A stretch of 29,652 bases of DNA, taken from IMG/VR virus record IMGVR_UViG_3300025276_000146, positions 1 through 29,652 of that record. The stretch is one strand, 5' to 3'. The notes under the pieces were generated by a model. The model saw nothing but the letters and a program-made list of their open reading frames with translations, did not search any database and was not told the DNA's origin. Position 1 is the stretch's first letter. Each line of letters begins with the position of its first letter. Origin of the DNA: a virus. A program made the position numbers and the translations under genes. Positions 23,895 to 29,652 of this stretch are shown here, piece by piece.

Positions 23895-23902
23895 TATTTA
23901 TG
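23895..23902 (-). promoter_or_regulatory. T4-type late promoter for the leftward baseplate operon
   Basis: CATAAATA on the minus strand (7/8 match to the late consensus) lies ~41 nt upstream of the gp48-like ATG, with predicted +1 near 23889. The complement of its CAT is the gp4 start codon on the plus strand, so promoter and start codon share bases. Confidence 0.5.
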
Positions 23903-24349
23903 GCATATTCGGGTAAGTTTAAACCAAAGAACTACAAAAAATATAGAGGAGACCCTACTAAAATCTTTTATAGGTCGTTGTGGGAGCGTAGATTCATGGT
24001 TTACTGTGATGAAAACAGCAATATCCTTGAATGGGGAAGTGAAGAAATCATAATCCCCTACATTTCTCCCTTAGACAAACGAGCTCATAGGTATTTTCCC
24101 GACTTTTACATAAAGTATGTGAACGCACAAGGTAAAATACTCCGTGAAATCATAGAAGTGAAACCAAAACGACAAACTAAACCCCCCAAGATGCCTAAAA
24201 GAAAAACTCAAAGGTACTACAAAGAGGTTGCAACCTACGTTGTCAACGAAGCAAAGTTTAAAGCTGCAGAAAGTTTCTGCAAAGATAGGAAACTAGGTTT
24301 TAGAATACTAACCGAAGACCATTTACTCCCAAAGAAGGTAAAAAAATGA
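23900..24349 (+). CDS. gp4: Head completion nuclease gp4 (149 aa)
   Basis: This is a close homologue of T4 gp4 (also called gp50/4; ~150 aa), which acts on filled heads before tail joining and has been reported to be a nuclease. Conserved stretches are IFYRSLWERRFMVYCDENSN, WGSEEIIIPY, RAHRYFPDFYI and EIIEVKPKRQTKPPK. The last two give a PD-(D/E)xK-type active site, with D68, E86 and K88 the likely catalytic residues. The protein is basic, consistent with DNA binding. It is the first gene of the rightward operon and overlaps the next start by 4 nt (ATGA). An upstream ATG at 23884 is out of frame and is quickly stopped. Confidence 0.95.
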   Translation: MAYSGKFKPKNYKKYRGDPTKIFYRSLWERRFMVYCDENSNILEWGSEEIIIPYISPLDKRAHRYFPDFYIKYVNAQGKILREIIEVKPKRQTKPPKMPKRKTQRYYKEVATYVVNEAKFKAAESFCKDRKLGFRILTEDHLLPKKVKK

Positions 24350-24948
24350 AGAAATTATATGTATTTGATTTAGATGGAGTCTTGATTGACTCAAAAGCAA
24401 ACATGGAACTGGCATTCAACAAGTTAGACACTGGTAAACCTTTTGAGGATACCACTAATACGTTCCCAAGTTACTTTAAACACATCGGTAAACCGTTTAA
24501 AGATATCTTAACTGAGATGGGTATACTTACTGACCAAGATGAGTTGATGAGAAGGTACAATAGATACTCTGCAGCGAACTCTAAGTTGATAAAGTTTTAC
24601 GATGGGGTGGAAGAACACCTTCAATCTTTAGAGCGTGACGGTAAGAAATTAGCCGTGGTAACTTCGAAGTCGGAATCACGAGCAAATGCTATTCTCGCTG
24701 AGATTAACGTCAATTTTGAAATCATATGTTGTCCCACTGAAGGATTGAGAGGTAAACCGTCCCCCGACCAACTACTGTATACCCTTGCATATTGTAACAC
24801 TGACCCAAAGGATGCAGTCTATGTTGGTGACATGCAAGTAGATATGGATTGTGCAAACAGAGCGGGAGTGGATTTCATTTACGCAGAATATGGTTATGGA
24901 GATATAGAGTCATGTTGGAACAGAGCAGAATGCATACAGTCGGTTTAA
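24346..24948 (+). CDS. HAD-family phosphatase with cap domain (200 aa)
   Basis: This is a haloacid dehalogenase superfamily hydrolase. Motif I is YVFDLDGVLIDS with nucleophile D8 and acid/base D10. Residues ~15-85 form an alpha-helical C1 cap. Motif II is VVTSKS (T106/S107), motif III is GKPSP (K137), and motif IV is YVGDMQVDMDCA (D162, D166). The cap and size resemble phosphoglycolate phosphatase or beta-phosphoglucomutase-type members more than KdsC, which lacks a cap. It overlaps gp4 by 4 nt and the kdsB-like gene by 19 nt, so a joint role in sugar-phosphate metabolism leading to a CMP-sugar is plausible. The substrate cannot be told from sequence. Confidence 0.9.
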   Translation: MKKLYVFDLDGVLIDSKANMELAFNKLDTGKPFEDTTNTFPSYFKHIGKPFKDILTEMGILTDQDELMRRYNRYSAANSKLIKFYDGVEEHLQSLERDGKKLAVVTSKSESRANAILAEINVNFEIICCPTEGLRGKPSPDQLLYTLAYCNTDPKDAVYVGDMQVDMDCANRAGVDFIYAEYGYGDIESCWNRAECIQSV

Positions 24949-25649
24949 TCCCAGCACGTTGGGGTTCATCTAGGTTCGAGGGTAAACCCCTTGCAATCAT
25001 ATGTGGGGAGTCGATGATTAAAAGAACGTATGACCGTGCATCCGCTTCAAAGAGACTAGACCAAATTTATGTAGTTACGGATGATAAGAGAATTGAAAAT
25101 CATTGTAGTCTATTCAACATTCCTGTAATGAGAGTGGATGATGATTGTGCAACTGGAACAGATAGATGTGCAATTGCATCTCAAAAGATTGATGCCGATA
25201 TCTATGTTAACATACAAGGTGACGAACCTTTGATTGACCCCGAAGCAATCGATAGACTATGTGACTACTTCAAACCCGAAATCGGTGTGGCAAATGCATA
25301 CGTTACAATCGACAAACCATATAAGGTCATGGACAACGATGTAGTGAAGGTTGTCTTTGATACAAACCATTGTGCAATGTATTACTCACGTCATGGTATA
25401 CCTTTCCCACGAGGAGTAGGTGGTGCCTGTCATCAACAACTAGGATTGTATGCATTCACTAAGGAACGTCTCGAACAATTCAGTTCATTACCTATGCAGA
25501 CTTTAGAGAAAGCAGAGAGTGTTGAAATGTTGAGATTCCTTGAACATGGTCACAAAGTATTGATGGTCTATGTAGATGATGATGGTCTATCAGTCGATAC
25601 CCCTAAAGATATTACATTAGTAGAGGAAAGAATAAATGGTTATAACTAG
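24930..25649 (+). CDS. kdsB: 3-deoxy-manno-octulosonate cytidylyltransferase (CMP-KDO synthetase)
   Basis: KdsB transfers CMP from CTP to KDO, activating it for lipopolysaccharide or capsule synthesis in the host cytoplasm. The start is the ATG at 24930 (MHTVGLIPARWGSSRFEGKP), which gives 239 aa, close to E. coli KdsB (248). An in-frame ATG 27 codons upstream would read through the HAD coding sequence and adds no family residues. Motifs are the nucleotide-binding IPARWGSSRFEGKPL (7-21), VVTDD (48-52), TGTDR (75-79), NIQGDEPLID (94-103; D98 a likely metal ligand), YYSRHGIPFPRG (151-162), GLYAF (172-176), EMLRFLEHGHKVLM (199-212) and VDTPKD (222-227). All key motifs are intact. It sits in an overlapping three-gene cassette between gp4 and a probable gp2. 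Confidence 0.93.
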   Translation: MHTVGLIPARWGSSRFEGKPLAIICGESMIKRTYDRASASKRLDQIYVVTDDKRIENHCSLFNIPVMRVDDDCATGTDRCAIASQKIDADIYVNIQGDEPLIDPEAIDRLCDYFKPEIGVANAYVTIDKPYKVMDNDVVKVVFDTNHCAMYYSRHGIPFPRGVGGACHQQLGLYAFTKERLEQFSSLPMQTLEKAESVEMLRFLEHGHKVLMVYVDDDGLSVDTPKDITLVEERINGYN

Positions 25650-27837: not shown

Positions 27838-28542
27838 ATGGCATTACCAATTCAGGCAACACCCACATACAAATGTGACCTGCCCTCAACTGGTGCTGAA
27901 GTAAAATTCAGACCGTTCCTAGTAAAGGAACAAAAAATTCTTGTGATTGCACAAGAAAGTGAAGACCCTTCAACTACACTTAGTGCAGTTAAGGATTTAA
28001 TTAATAATGTAACGTTTGATAAAGTCAATGCGAATGAATTGACTATGTTTGACTTAGAGTATTTGTTCTGTAAAATCAGAGCAAAGTCTGTAGGTGAAAC
28101 CGTTCCCTTGAAGATGGCTTGTATGGTCACCGACTGTAAGGGAAGTGGAGAGACGGTAGTTAACTTAGATGAACTAACAGTAACAGAAAGTACTAGTGGT
28201 GACCCTAAGATAATGATATCCGATGAAGTTGGAATTGTATTAAGATACCCAACTGTTAAGGATATGGAAAAGATAACTACTGCAACGGAAGCAGAACAAT
28301 CGATAGAAGTTCTTAAAGCATCAATTACACAAATCTTTGATGCAGAGAATATCTATGAAGAGGCTGATATGTCAGCTGACGACAAAGCAGAGTTTGTGGA
28401 GAATTTAACCTTTCCACAAATCGAGAAGTTGAGTGCATTCTTTATGGGCATGCCCAAACTTCAAGGTAAAATAGGCTATACGTGTAACACATGTGGTAAG
28501 CAGAATGAAAGAATATTGGAAGGACTACAAAGTTTTTTTTAA
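27838..28542 (+). CDS. gp26: gp26-type baseplate hub / tail assembly protein (234 aa)
   Basis: This belongs to the T4 base plate protein family (gp26/gp51 type), small hub-assembly factors. The N-terminal half has EVKFRPFLVKEQKILVIAQE and ELTMFDLEYLFCKIRAKSVG, typical of the family. Two cysteine pairs (C95-x4-C100 and C216-x2-C219) probably bind zinc. The gene ends SFF-stop inside a run of eight T (28533-28540), and the -1 frame continues with 64 protein-like residues. This layout, short product plus frameshifted long product just before the tape measure, is that of tail-assembly chaperones such as lambda G/GT. The start is ATG 27838 with GGAG ~8 nt upstream. Confidence 0.9.
   Translation: MALPIQATPTYKCDLPSTGAEVKFRPFLVKEQKILVIAQESEDPSTTLSAVKDLINNVTFDKVNANELTMFDLEYLFCKIRAKSVGETVPLKMACMVTDCKGSGETVVNLDELTVTESTSGDPKIMISDEVGIVLRYPTVKDMEKITTATEAEQSIEVLKASITQIFDAENIYEEADMSADDKAEFVENLTFPQIEKLSAFFMGMPKLQGKIGYTCNTCGKQNERILEGLQSFF
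28533..28539 (+). promoter_or_regulatory. Slippery heptamer T-TTT-TTT for -1 frameshifting
   Basis: Zero-frame reading is AGT TTT TTT TAA. The heptamer T-TTT-TTT allows both P- and A-site tRNA-Phe to re-pair after a -1 slip, with the zero-frame stop immediately following. A GGTGTT/AACACC stem (28562-28567 with 28578-28583, 10-nt loop) lies ~22 nt downstream and may or may not stimulate. Polymerase slippage on T8 would give the same fusion. Confidence 0.65.
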
Positions 28543-28733
28543 TAACCCTTTCTCACGAGTCGGTGTTTAATTACTATAACACCAACTTTCAACTAATGCA
28601 ACATCACAAATATTCGTTAGATGAATTAGATACTATGATACCTTGGGAAAGGGAAGTCTACATCAAATTGCTAATGCAACATCTTGAAGAAGAACGTGAA
28701 CGTCAGAAGCAGGAACAGGCTAGGAACAGATAG
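28539..28733 (+). CDS. Frameshifted C-terminal extension of the gp26-type protein (64 aa)
   Basis: After a -1 slip the frame runs LITLSHESVFNYYNTNFQL, then MQHHKYSLDELDTMIPWERE, VYIKLLMQHLEEERERQKQE and on to TAG at 28731-28733. The full fusion would be 298 aa. The sequence is plainly protein-like from about ESVFNYY, i.e. 14 codons before the only early in-frame ATG (28596), and that ATG has no Shine-Dalgarno. An aromatic segment is followed by PWEREVY and a charged helix, the style of chaperone extensions that bind the tape measure. Independent translation from 28596 (45 aa) remains an alternative. Confidence 0.7.
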   Translation, partial: LITLSHESVFNYYNTNFQLMQHHKYSLDELDTMIPWEREVYIKLLMQHLEEERERQKQEQARNR

Positions 28734-28762: not shown

Positions 28763-29143
28763 ATGAGCGATATGGAAAAATTTCAAGGCGACATGAGTCG
28801 TAACGAAGTCGAAATTGATTTGAAGAAATTCATGAGCATGGTTACTGAGATTGGTGACTTAAAACAAGAAATATTCGAATTAACAAACGAAGATAGAAAG
28901 AACCCTTGGCAGAAATGGGTATTTGCAGCCAAGACAATTGATGCATGGAGAGTAATACCTCGTGCATTCCTAGGTATATACATGTACCTACTATACTATG
29001 CAACATTTTGGTTTATGGAACTGCCTGAACCATCACTAGAACAATCGGGATTGATTTCCGTATTGGTTGGTGCTGGAGCAGCTTGGTTCGGATTGTACAC
29101 ATCAAGTGCATCCAAAGAACATGGTGATTCAAACCCTAACTAG
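28763..29143 (+). CDS. Holin-like membrane protein with two TM segments (126 aa)
   Basis: Residues 1-60 are soluble, acidic and helical (EIDLKKFMSMVTEIGDLKQE). Two hydrophobic segments follow, ~66-85 (PRAFLGIYMYLLYYATFWFM) and ~95-113 (SGLISVLVGAGAAWFGLYTS), joined by a short ELPEPSLEQ loop, then a short polar tail. The second segment with Gly/Ala packing and GLY, and the intervening LPEPSLEQ, resemble small phage membrane proteins often labelled holin-like. Both termini are probably cytoplasmic. A GAGG Shine-Dalgarno precedes ATG 28763. A holin role is not proven; placement between a tail chaperone and the probable tape measure is unusual for lysis genes. Confidence 0.8.
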   Translation: MSDMEKFQGDMSRNEVEIDLKKFMSMVTEIGDLKQEIFELTNEDRKNPWQKWVFAAKTIDAWRVIPRAFLGIYMYLLYYATFWFMELPEPSLEQSGLISVLVGAGAAWFGLYTSSASKEHGDSNPN

Positions 29144-29153
29144 GAATTAACAA

Positions 29154-29652
29154 ATGGCCGTAGATAACGCAGAAATAAAGAATTTCACACAAGGTTTAAT
29201 TGGAAGCTTAAACAGGGTAACAACTGGTTTTGCTTTCAAGCAGTCGGGTGAAATAATTAAAGCAAACGAGAGAATGAAAGATTCGCAAGAAAGACTTGCT
29301 CGTAGGCAATCTGCACATCAAGATAAGGTCGTCACACAACAAGAGAAGTATGAAAAGTCTCGTGAGAAGATTCAAGTAAAACACGCTAGCAATCAAACAC
29401 AACGTGACATTGAATTATTCAAATTAGACAATCGAAGAAATGCATCTACCAAAGAATTAGTAGATGACTTTGATACTTTCAAAAAATCGTTACAAGACGG
29501 TGTTGACTTAGAGAAGGAACATATCACTAACCTCAAATCTGAAGGTAGTATGAATAGTGGCTTCGATGGTATGTCTGCTGGTCTTGATAACATGACCAAA
29601 GGTATTGAAGGTTTAACATTCGGAATCGTCGACTTAAGTGGTGGTACTAGTA
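29154..29652 (+). CDS. Probable tape-measure / hub protein, N-terminal part
   Basis: The frame opens at ATG 29154 (AGGA about 9 nt upstream) and runs off the right edge after 166 codons. Residues ~1-30 (AVDNAEIKNFTQGLIGSLNR) are followed by a long charged helix, ~30-125 (ANERMKDSQERLARRQSAHQ, TQQEKYEKSREKIQVKHASN), likely a coiled coil. A Gly/Ser/Met-rich stretch (GSMNSGFDGMSAGLDNMTKG) follows at ~136-156. Coiled-coil content and position after the frameshifting gp26-type gene fit a tape measure (T4 gp29-like). The missing C-terminal part prevents a firm call. Confidence 0.75.
   Translation, partial: MAVDNAEIKNFTQGLIGSLNRVTTGFAFKQSGEIIKANERMKDSQERLARRQSAHQDKVVTQQEKYEKSREKIQVKHASNQTQRDIELFKLDNRRNASTKELVDDFDTFKKSLQDGVDLEKEHITNLKSEGSMNSGFDGMSAGLDNMTKGIEGLTFGIVDLSGGTS

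Follow-up and report, generated by a model that had tools for sequence, protein, structure and literature searches.

A T4-like tail-assembly chaperone probably produced in two forms by -1 ribosomal frameshifting in a metagenomic virus fragment

Results

The window analysed here is the whole 29,652-base stretch of IMG/VR record IMGVR_UViG_3300025276_000146, and this fragment, obtained from a metagenome, is all that the record contains. One of its loci most probably (we put the probability at about 0.94) encodes the tail-assembly chaperone (TAC) of a marine T4-like (kyanovirus-like) phage in two forms, TAC-N and TAC-NC, by means of -1 ribosomal frameshifting. The majority of ribosomes would terminate at the TAA codon at 28540 and release TAC-N of 234 amino acids (aa), and a fraction of them would slip one base back on T_TTT_TTT, bypass the stop and synthesize TAC-NC, i.e. 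TAC-N prolonged by the 64-residue TAC-C. Both the slippage in cells and its efficiency are predicted here from the nucleotide sequence, and the chaperone function is assigned by analogy with lambda gpG/gpGT, according to which TAC-N would coat the tape-measure protein, whose gene lies a short way downstream, and TAC-C would recruit subunits of the tail tube. The elements required for this reading are the following:

27838–28542, plus strand: TAC-N, gp26-type gene, 234 aa, product of ordinary decoding (PF12322, phrog_150)
28533–28539, plus strand: slippery heptamer T_TTT_TTT, inside the T8 run 28533–28540
28539–28733, plus strand: TAC-C, -1-frame extension of 64 codons and TAG (phrog_634; tblastn; ratio of non-synonymous to synonymous polymorphism, pN/pS)

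Slip site and its conservation

The gene 27838–28542 ends with AGT TTT TTT TAA (28531–28542), so that, as the first-pass annotation of this DNA had claimed, a perfect heptamer stands directly before the stop codon; its phase is that required for a simultaneous -1 slip. The T8 run is the sole run of eight T or eight A in the window, and no other in-frame T_TTT_TTN was found among its long open reading frames (ORFs). After the slip the first -1 codon is TTA at 28539, and the frame continues, again as expected, for 64 codons, LITLSHESVFNYYNTNFQLMQHHKYSLDELDTMIPWEREVYIKLLMQHLEEERERQKQEQARNR, up to the TAG at 28731–28733. The earliest ATG in this frame, at 28596, would yield a product of only 45 aa, and there is also a GTG at 28563 (56 aa).

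Relatives of the locus were gathered from IMG/VR and from phage records, and fragments ending before the junction were excluded. T4 aside, the set comprised 174 complete loci; 128 of their sequences are distinct, and clustering at 75% identity sorts these into 59 clusters. KVP40 gp26 used as a query against IMG/VR reached only two loci. Conservation of the slippery run, for which an alignment of homologous loci had been proposed, turned out to be complete: in-frame NN[T_TTT_TTN] is present at the equivalent place in all 174 loci, 0–8 codons before the zero-frame stop, and the -1 extension spans 56–73 codons in the 124 cases where it is complete. Loci with the slip site include those of cyanophages, of a Methylophilales phage, of Vibrio phages KVP40 and nt-1, of a Sinorhizobium phage and of Rhizobium, Stenotrophomonas, Pseudomonas (pf16) and Aeromonas (Angelvirus) phages. 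A homologue with the extension as a separate ORF, having its own ribosome-binding site and no T run, was also sought, and T4 proved to be the sole complete locus without the in-frame heptamer; there a second gene copy carries the extension, joined to it in a single reading frame.

The six T's are unvarying even at synonymous positions and only the last base of the heptamer changes (TTTTTTC in 83, TTTTTTT in 28, TTTTTTA in 14 and TTTTTTG in 3 of the 128 distinct sequences). The codon preceding the run is always NNT and the first Phe codon is always TTT, yet outside the slip site these genes commonly use AGC, AAC, GAC and TTC, and T_TTT_TTN occurs there at only 8 of 13,920 codon positions.

Selection on the -1 frame and alternative explanations

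The claim that the extension is coding ahead of its first ATG is borne out by the substitution pattern, with selection acting upstream of any start codon in most relatives. Within clusters, pN/pS for codons 1–9 after the slip is 0.19 in the -1 frame versus 1.29 and 3.1 in the other frames, and it drops to 0.06 for codons 10–40; both frames used by the locus are under purifying selection. Ahead of the slip, the open part of the -1 frame contains an ATG in 3 of 59 clusters and none in the remaining 56, while the first ATG of this frame usually takes codon 18 or 19 (codon 15 or later in 40/59 clusters) and its positions are scattered.

These data bear directly on the strongest of the alternatives, in which TAC-C is a separate short gene (the cyanophage “gp51”) translated from its own start or by stop–start coupling, with no frameshift at all. 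Many records annotate TAC-C in this way, 10 of 59 clusters, those of KVP40 and Rhizobium phages among them, do have the stop–start overlaps TAATG or TGATG, and Shine–Dalgarno (SD) sequences near gene ends can serve re-initiation (PMC5009743). However, there is no such overlap in 49 clusters, including that of the window, selection on the -1 frame begins ahead of any start codon, candidate start positions scatter, and an SD-like signal upstream of the slip (see below) is just as strong far from start codons. A separate gene would also leave the invariance of NNT TTT TTN at synonymous sites unexplained, and we consider this explanation improbable. Since the overlaps are present in 10 clusters, the lineages concerned may gain some additional free TAC-C through re-initiation, though this cannot be the general mechanism of TAC-C synthesis. 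In the loci L083 (KVP40), L025, L035, L145, L171, L172 and L175 the ATG of a TAATG or TGATG overlap lies in the -1 frame directly after the slip site.

Still less probable is a change of frame brought about by RNA polymerase rather than by the ribosome. Bacterial RNA polymerase can slip on runs of 8 T, and the window has exactly eight consecutive T's, but the run is just 6 T long in 45 of 59 clusters, and what the relatives preserve is the phase in which a ribosome would read the heptamer, whichever its last base; excess of folding downstream and SD-like bias upstream also suit ribosomal slippage. An assembly or homopolymer error, or a decayed gene, which might be suspected in a metagenomic virus record because T8 runs attract indel errors, is contradicted by the relatives, as the same layout with both frames under purifying selection recurs in 128 distinct sequences, finished isolate genomes among them, and the probability of such an error or decay is practically negligible.

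Identity of the two products and the case of T4

The short product matches PF12322 (T4_baseplate) over residues 9–234 (1.5e-56; 192 bits against a curated cut-off of 24.5) and phrog_150 “baseplate hub” (5.1e-60), and more than 650 phage records match TAC-N. For the extension the profile match is phrog_634 “baseplate hub assembly catalyst” (gp51; 6.6e-28), which T4 gp51 itself also matches (1.2e-23). The extension has tblastn matches in 564 phage records and aligns with the C-terminus of T4 gp51. The name “gp26-type hub gene” given in the first pass is thus correct with respect to the gp26/gp51 family, and its word “hub” is an inherited label.

In T4 the same parts are arranged in a different manner. 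Its gp26 aligns with the short product and stops where the slip would fall, TTC TTT replacing the T run, and in its gp51 the PF12322 domain continues, in one frame, into an extension alignable with the -1 frame. T4 thus has two separate genes without frameshift, gp26 corresponding to TAC-N and gp51 to a fusion of TAC-N and TAC-C. The T4-like form of gp51 is also present in Aeromonas phage 31 and in ten further T4-type contigs; where the retrieved sequence extends far enough, nearly all of these encode gp26 separately, on the other strand. A tree separates gp26, gp51 and the frameshifting genes into three groups and, being unrooted, does not give the direction of the T4 change (duplication in an ancestor that frameshifted, or the reverse). 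The suggestion that a conserved frameshift would link gp26 and gp51 is supported by alignments of the relatives and by profile matches.

Two further loci deserve mention. Aeromonas phage AsFcp_2 (L174:2441–3217) has no annotated gp51 and nevertheless contains a 57-codon -1 extension after TTTTTTC; this case may explain the gp51 reported as missing in Aeh1 (PMC3037559). At L190:2482–3255 a T4-type gp51 gene is split between two overlapping frames, which is likely a sequencing error or a broken gene.

Putative helper elements

Two elements flanking the slip site may assist the frameshift:

28518–28524, plus strand: SD-like element GGAAGGA, 8 nucleotides (nt) before the heptamer; SD-likeness is selected at this place across relatives
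28557–28588, plus strand: stem-loop GAGT.GGTGTT / AACACC.ACTT of 10 base pairs (bp), a possible stimulator (fold; compensatory changes)

Upstream of the slip, the Glu codon located four codons before NNT is GAG in 77% of cases (weighted) versus 30% elsewhere, which places it at the top of 56 Glu columns. Predicted pairing of the 21 upstream nt with the anti-SD sequence exceeds that of synonymous recodings in 52 of 59 clusters (p 2e-8), this excess is confined along the gene to the segment just upstream of the slip, and the signal is equal with or without a nearby start codon. SD tetramers mostly begin 12–15 nt before the first T. Backed in this way across the relatives, the SD-like element is likely a frameshift helper.

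Downstream of the slip, the stem GGTGTT/AACACC, noticed in the first pass about 22 nt after the heptamer, was found at 28562–28567 and 28578–28583 at precisely this distance, and GAGT/ACTT extends it to 10 bp. The extended stem starts at a spacing of 17 nt from the heptamer and folds with -9.6 kcal/mol (z -3.1; 0/200 shuffles as good). Among 12 distinct sequences of the window's clade 90% of pairing is kept versus 39–53% when the stem is slid, and compensatory changes affect three of its pairs (0/500 shuffles for cells changed on both sides). Over the relatives, folding beyond synonymous expectation peaks in 50-nt windows whose start lies 0–20 nt past the slip site; there mean z is -1.2 to -1.4, and away from this peak about -0.3. 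Other clades have stems at other positions, some 5–6 nt after the heptamer, so that the excess of folding is real and its position is clade-specific. One stem common to all clades was considered and dismissed: over 58 clusters, none of the helix positions did better than synonymous recoding. Judging from these patterns, the downstream stem is likely a helper in the window's clade.

Several observations weigh against the proposed reading. Stimulators are usually spaced 5–9 nt from the slip site, and the 17 nt found in the window exceed this distance; nor is there a stem position common to all clades. GGAAGGA of the window does not exceed what synonymous recoding would give. Finally, the predicted model of TAC-N (folded alone; mean predicted local distance difference test score, pLDDT, 86.8) resembles the HK97 tail-assembly chaperone 2ob9 only weakly (E 0.8–1.0, prob 0.57–0.72, TMt 0.37–0.41). 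A structure search of PDB with this model gave nothing significant and a sequence search of PDB with the TAC-N profile gave no match; the top BFVD matches of the model belong to the gp26 family itself.

Discussion

Frameshifting chaperones of the gp26/gp51 type in T4-like phages were the subject of Vladimirov, Gautam & Davidson (2022, Virology 566:9–15), a study cited for poly-T -1 slippery sequences in T4-like TAC-N genes by PMC12846349 and also cited in PMC10885494. Its TAC-N and TAC-NC reportedly come from genes of the same gp26/gp51 family, with no essential difference from the window, so the novelty that the first pass had implied for this frameshift is not supported. The window is, therefore, a correct and independent rediscovery in a metagenome fragment and a new example of a described trick. 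The 2022 study reportedly describes the frameshift for several groups of T4-like phages, with genes 26 and 51 standing apart in T4 itself. The analysis of the SD-like bias and of the stem may exceed the published work, and together they make a directly testable frameshift cassette.

A design of the lambda G/GT type before the tape measure, suggested from the sequence, is supported by the heptamer, by the extension without a start and by the tape-measure gene downstream. In lambda, gpG and gpGT are likewise the short and the long form of a chaperone, encoded ahead of the tape-measure gene, and the lambda slip site differs in sequence; TAC-N of the window, a PF12322 protein of 234 aa, is likened to gpG by layout. 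Similarity in layout also extends to other phage families, as the TAC locus of Pseudomonas phage Adele and Vandenendeviridae shows -1 frameshifting on a GTTTTT motif ahead of the tape-measure gene (PMC12846349). The same order of SD-like element, 7-nt slip site and downstream stem is known for E. coli dnaX (PMC5009743), which differs in having A_AAA_AAG and in that its shifted product is the short one; compared with dnaX, the strong elements of the window are only the slip site and the distant stem. As to whether T4-like phages share a three-part dnaX-like cassette (SD-like GAGG 12–15 nt upstream, T_TTT_TTN and a clade-specific stem) that the T4 gp26/gp51 pair replaced by gene duplication, we see even odds.

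The review of 2016 still listed T4 as an exception to tail-chaperone frameshifting (PMC5009743); our comparison agrees with the later view that T4 divides the job between two genes. Cyanophage gp51 was described as short, about 20% of the usual length (PMC3037559), and the comparison also accounts for this truncated look. In many marine phage records TAC-C is either annotated as a gene of its own or missing.

Genomic environment

Two genes follow the chaperone on the same strand:

28763–29143, plus strand: 126-aa protein of phrog_10198 (function unknown), between the chaperone and the tape measure
29154–29652, plus strand: 5' portion of the tape-measure gene, which runs on beyond the window (homologue in the related locus L008)

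The full-length homologue of the latter in L008 has 755 aa and matches several tape-measure PHROGs, the best being phrog_58 (6.4e-08). The tape measure was thus identified properly in the first pass; as to its place as the next long gene, the 126-aa gene in between has to be added. Upstream of TAC-N lie genes for a gp2-like DNA end protector and for a tail-tube-like protein, and the locus is situated at the chaperone position of long-tailed phages.

The 126-aa protein has apparent membrane-spanning stretches, and small genes occupy the equivalent place in Melnitz, phiM19, DLP6 and Rhizobium phages. Farther upstream on the plus strand are genes for a cytidylyltransferase (CTP_transf_3, 24849–25649), a HAD-family hydrolase (24346–24948) and a protein with a TnsA-like nuclease domain (23900–24349). 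Situated between the baseplate genes and the gp2/tail-tube/chaperone block, they are possibly a small sugar-nucleotide cassette. The minus strand from 3390 to 23853 carries a T4-type baseplate module with gp8-, gp6-, gp25-, tail-lysozyme/hub-, wedge- and gp48-like proteins, which also encodes structural proteins of very great length (2265 and 1533 aa).
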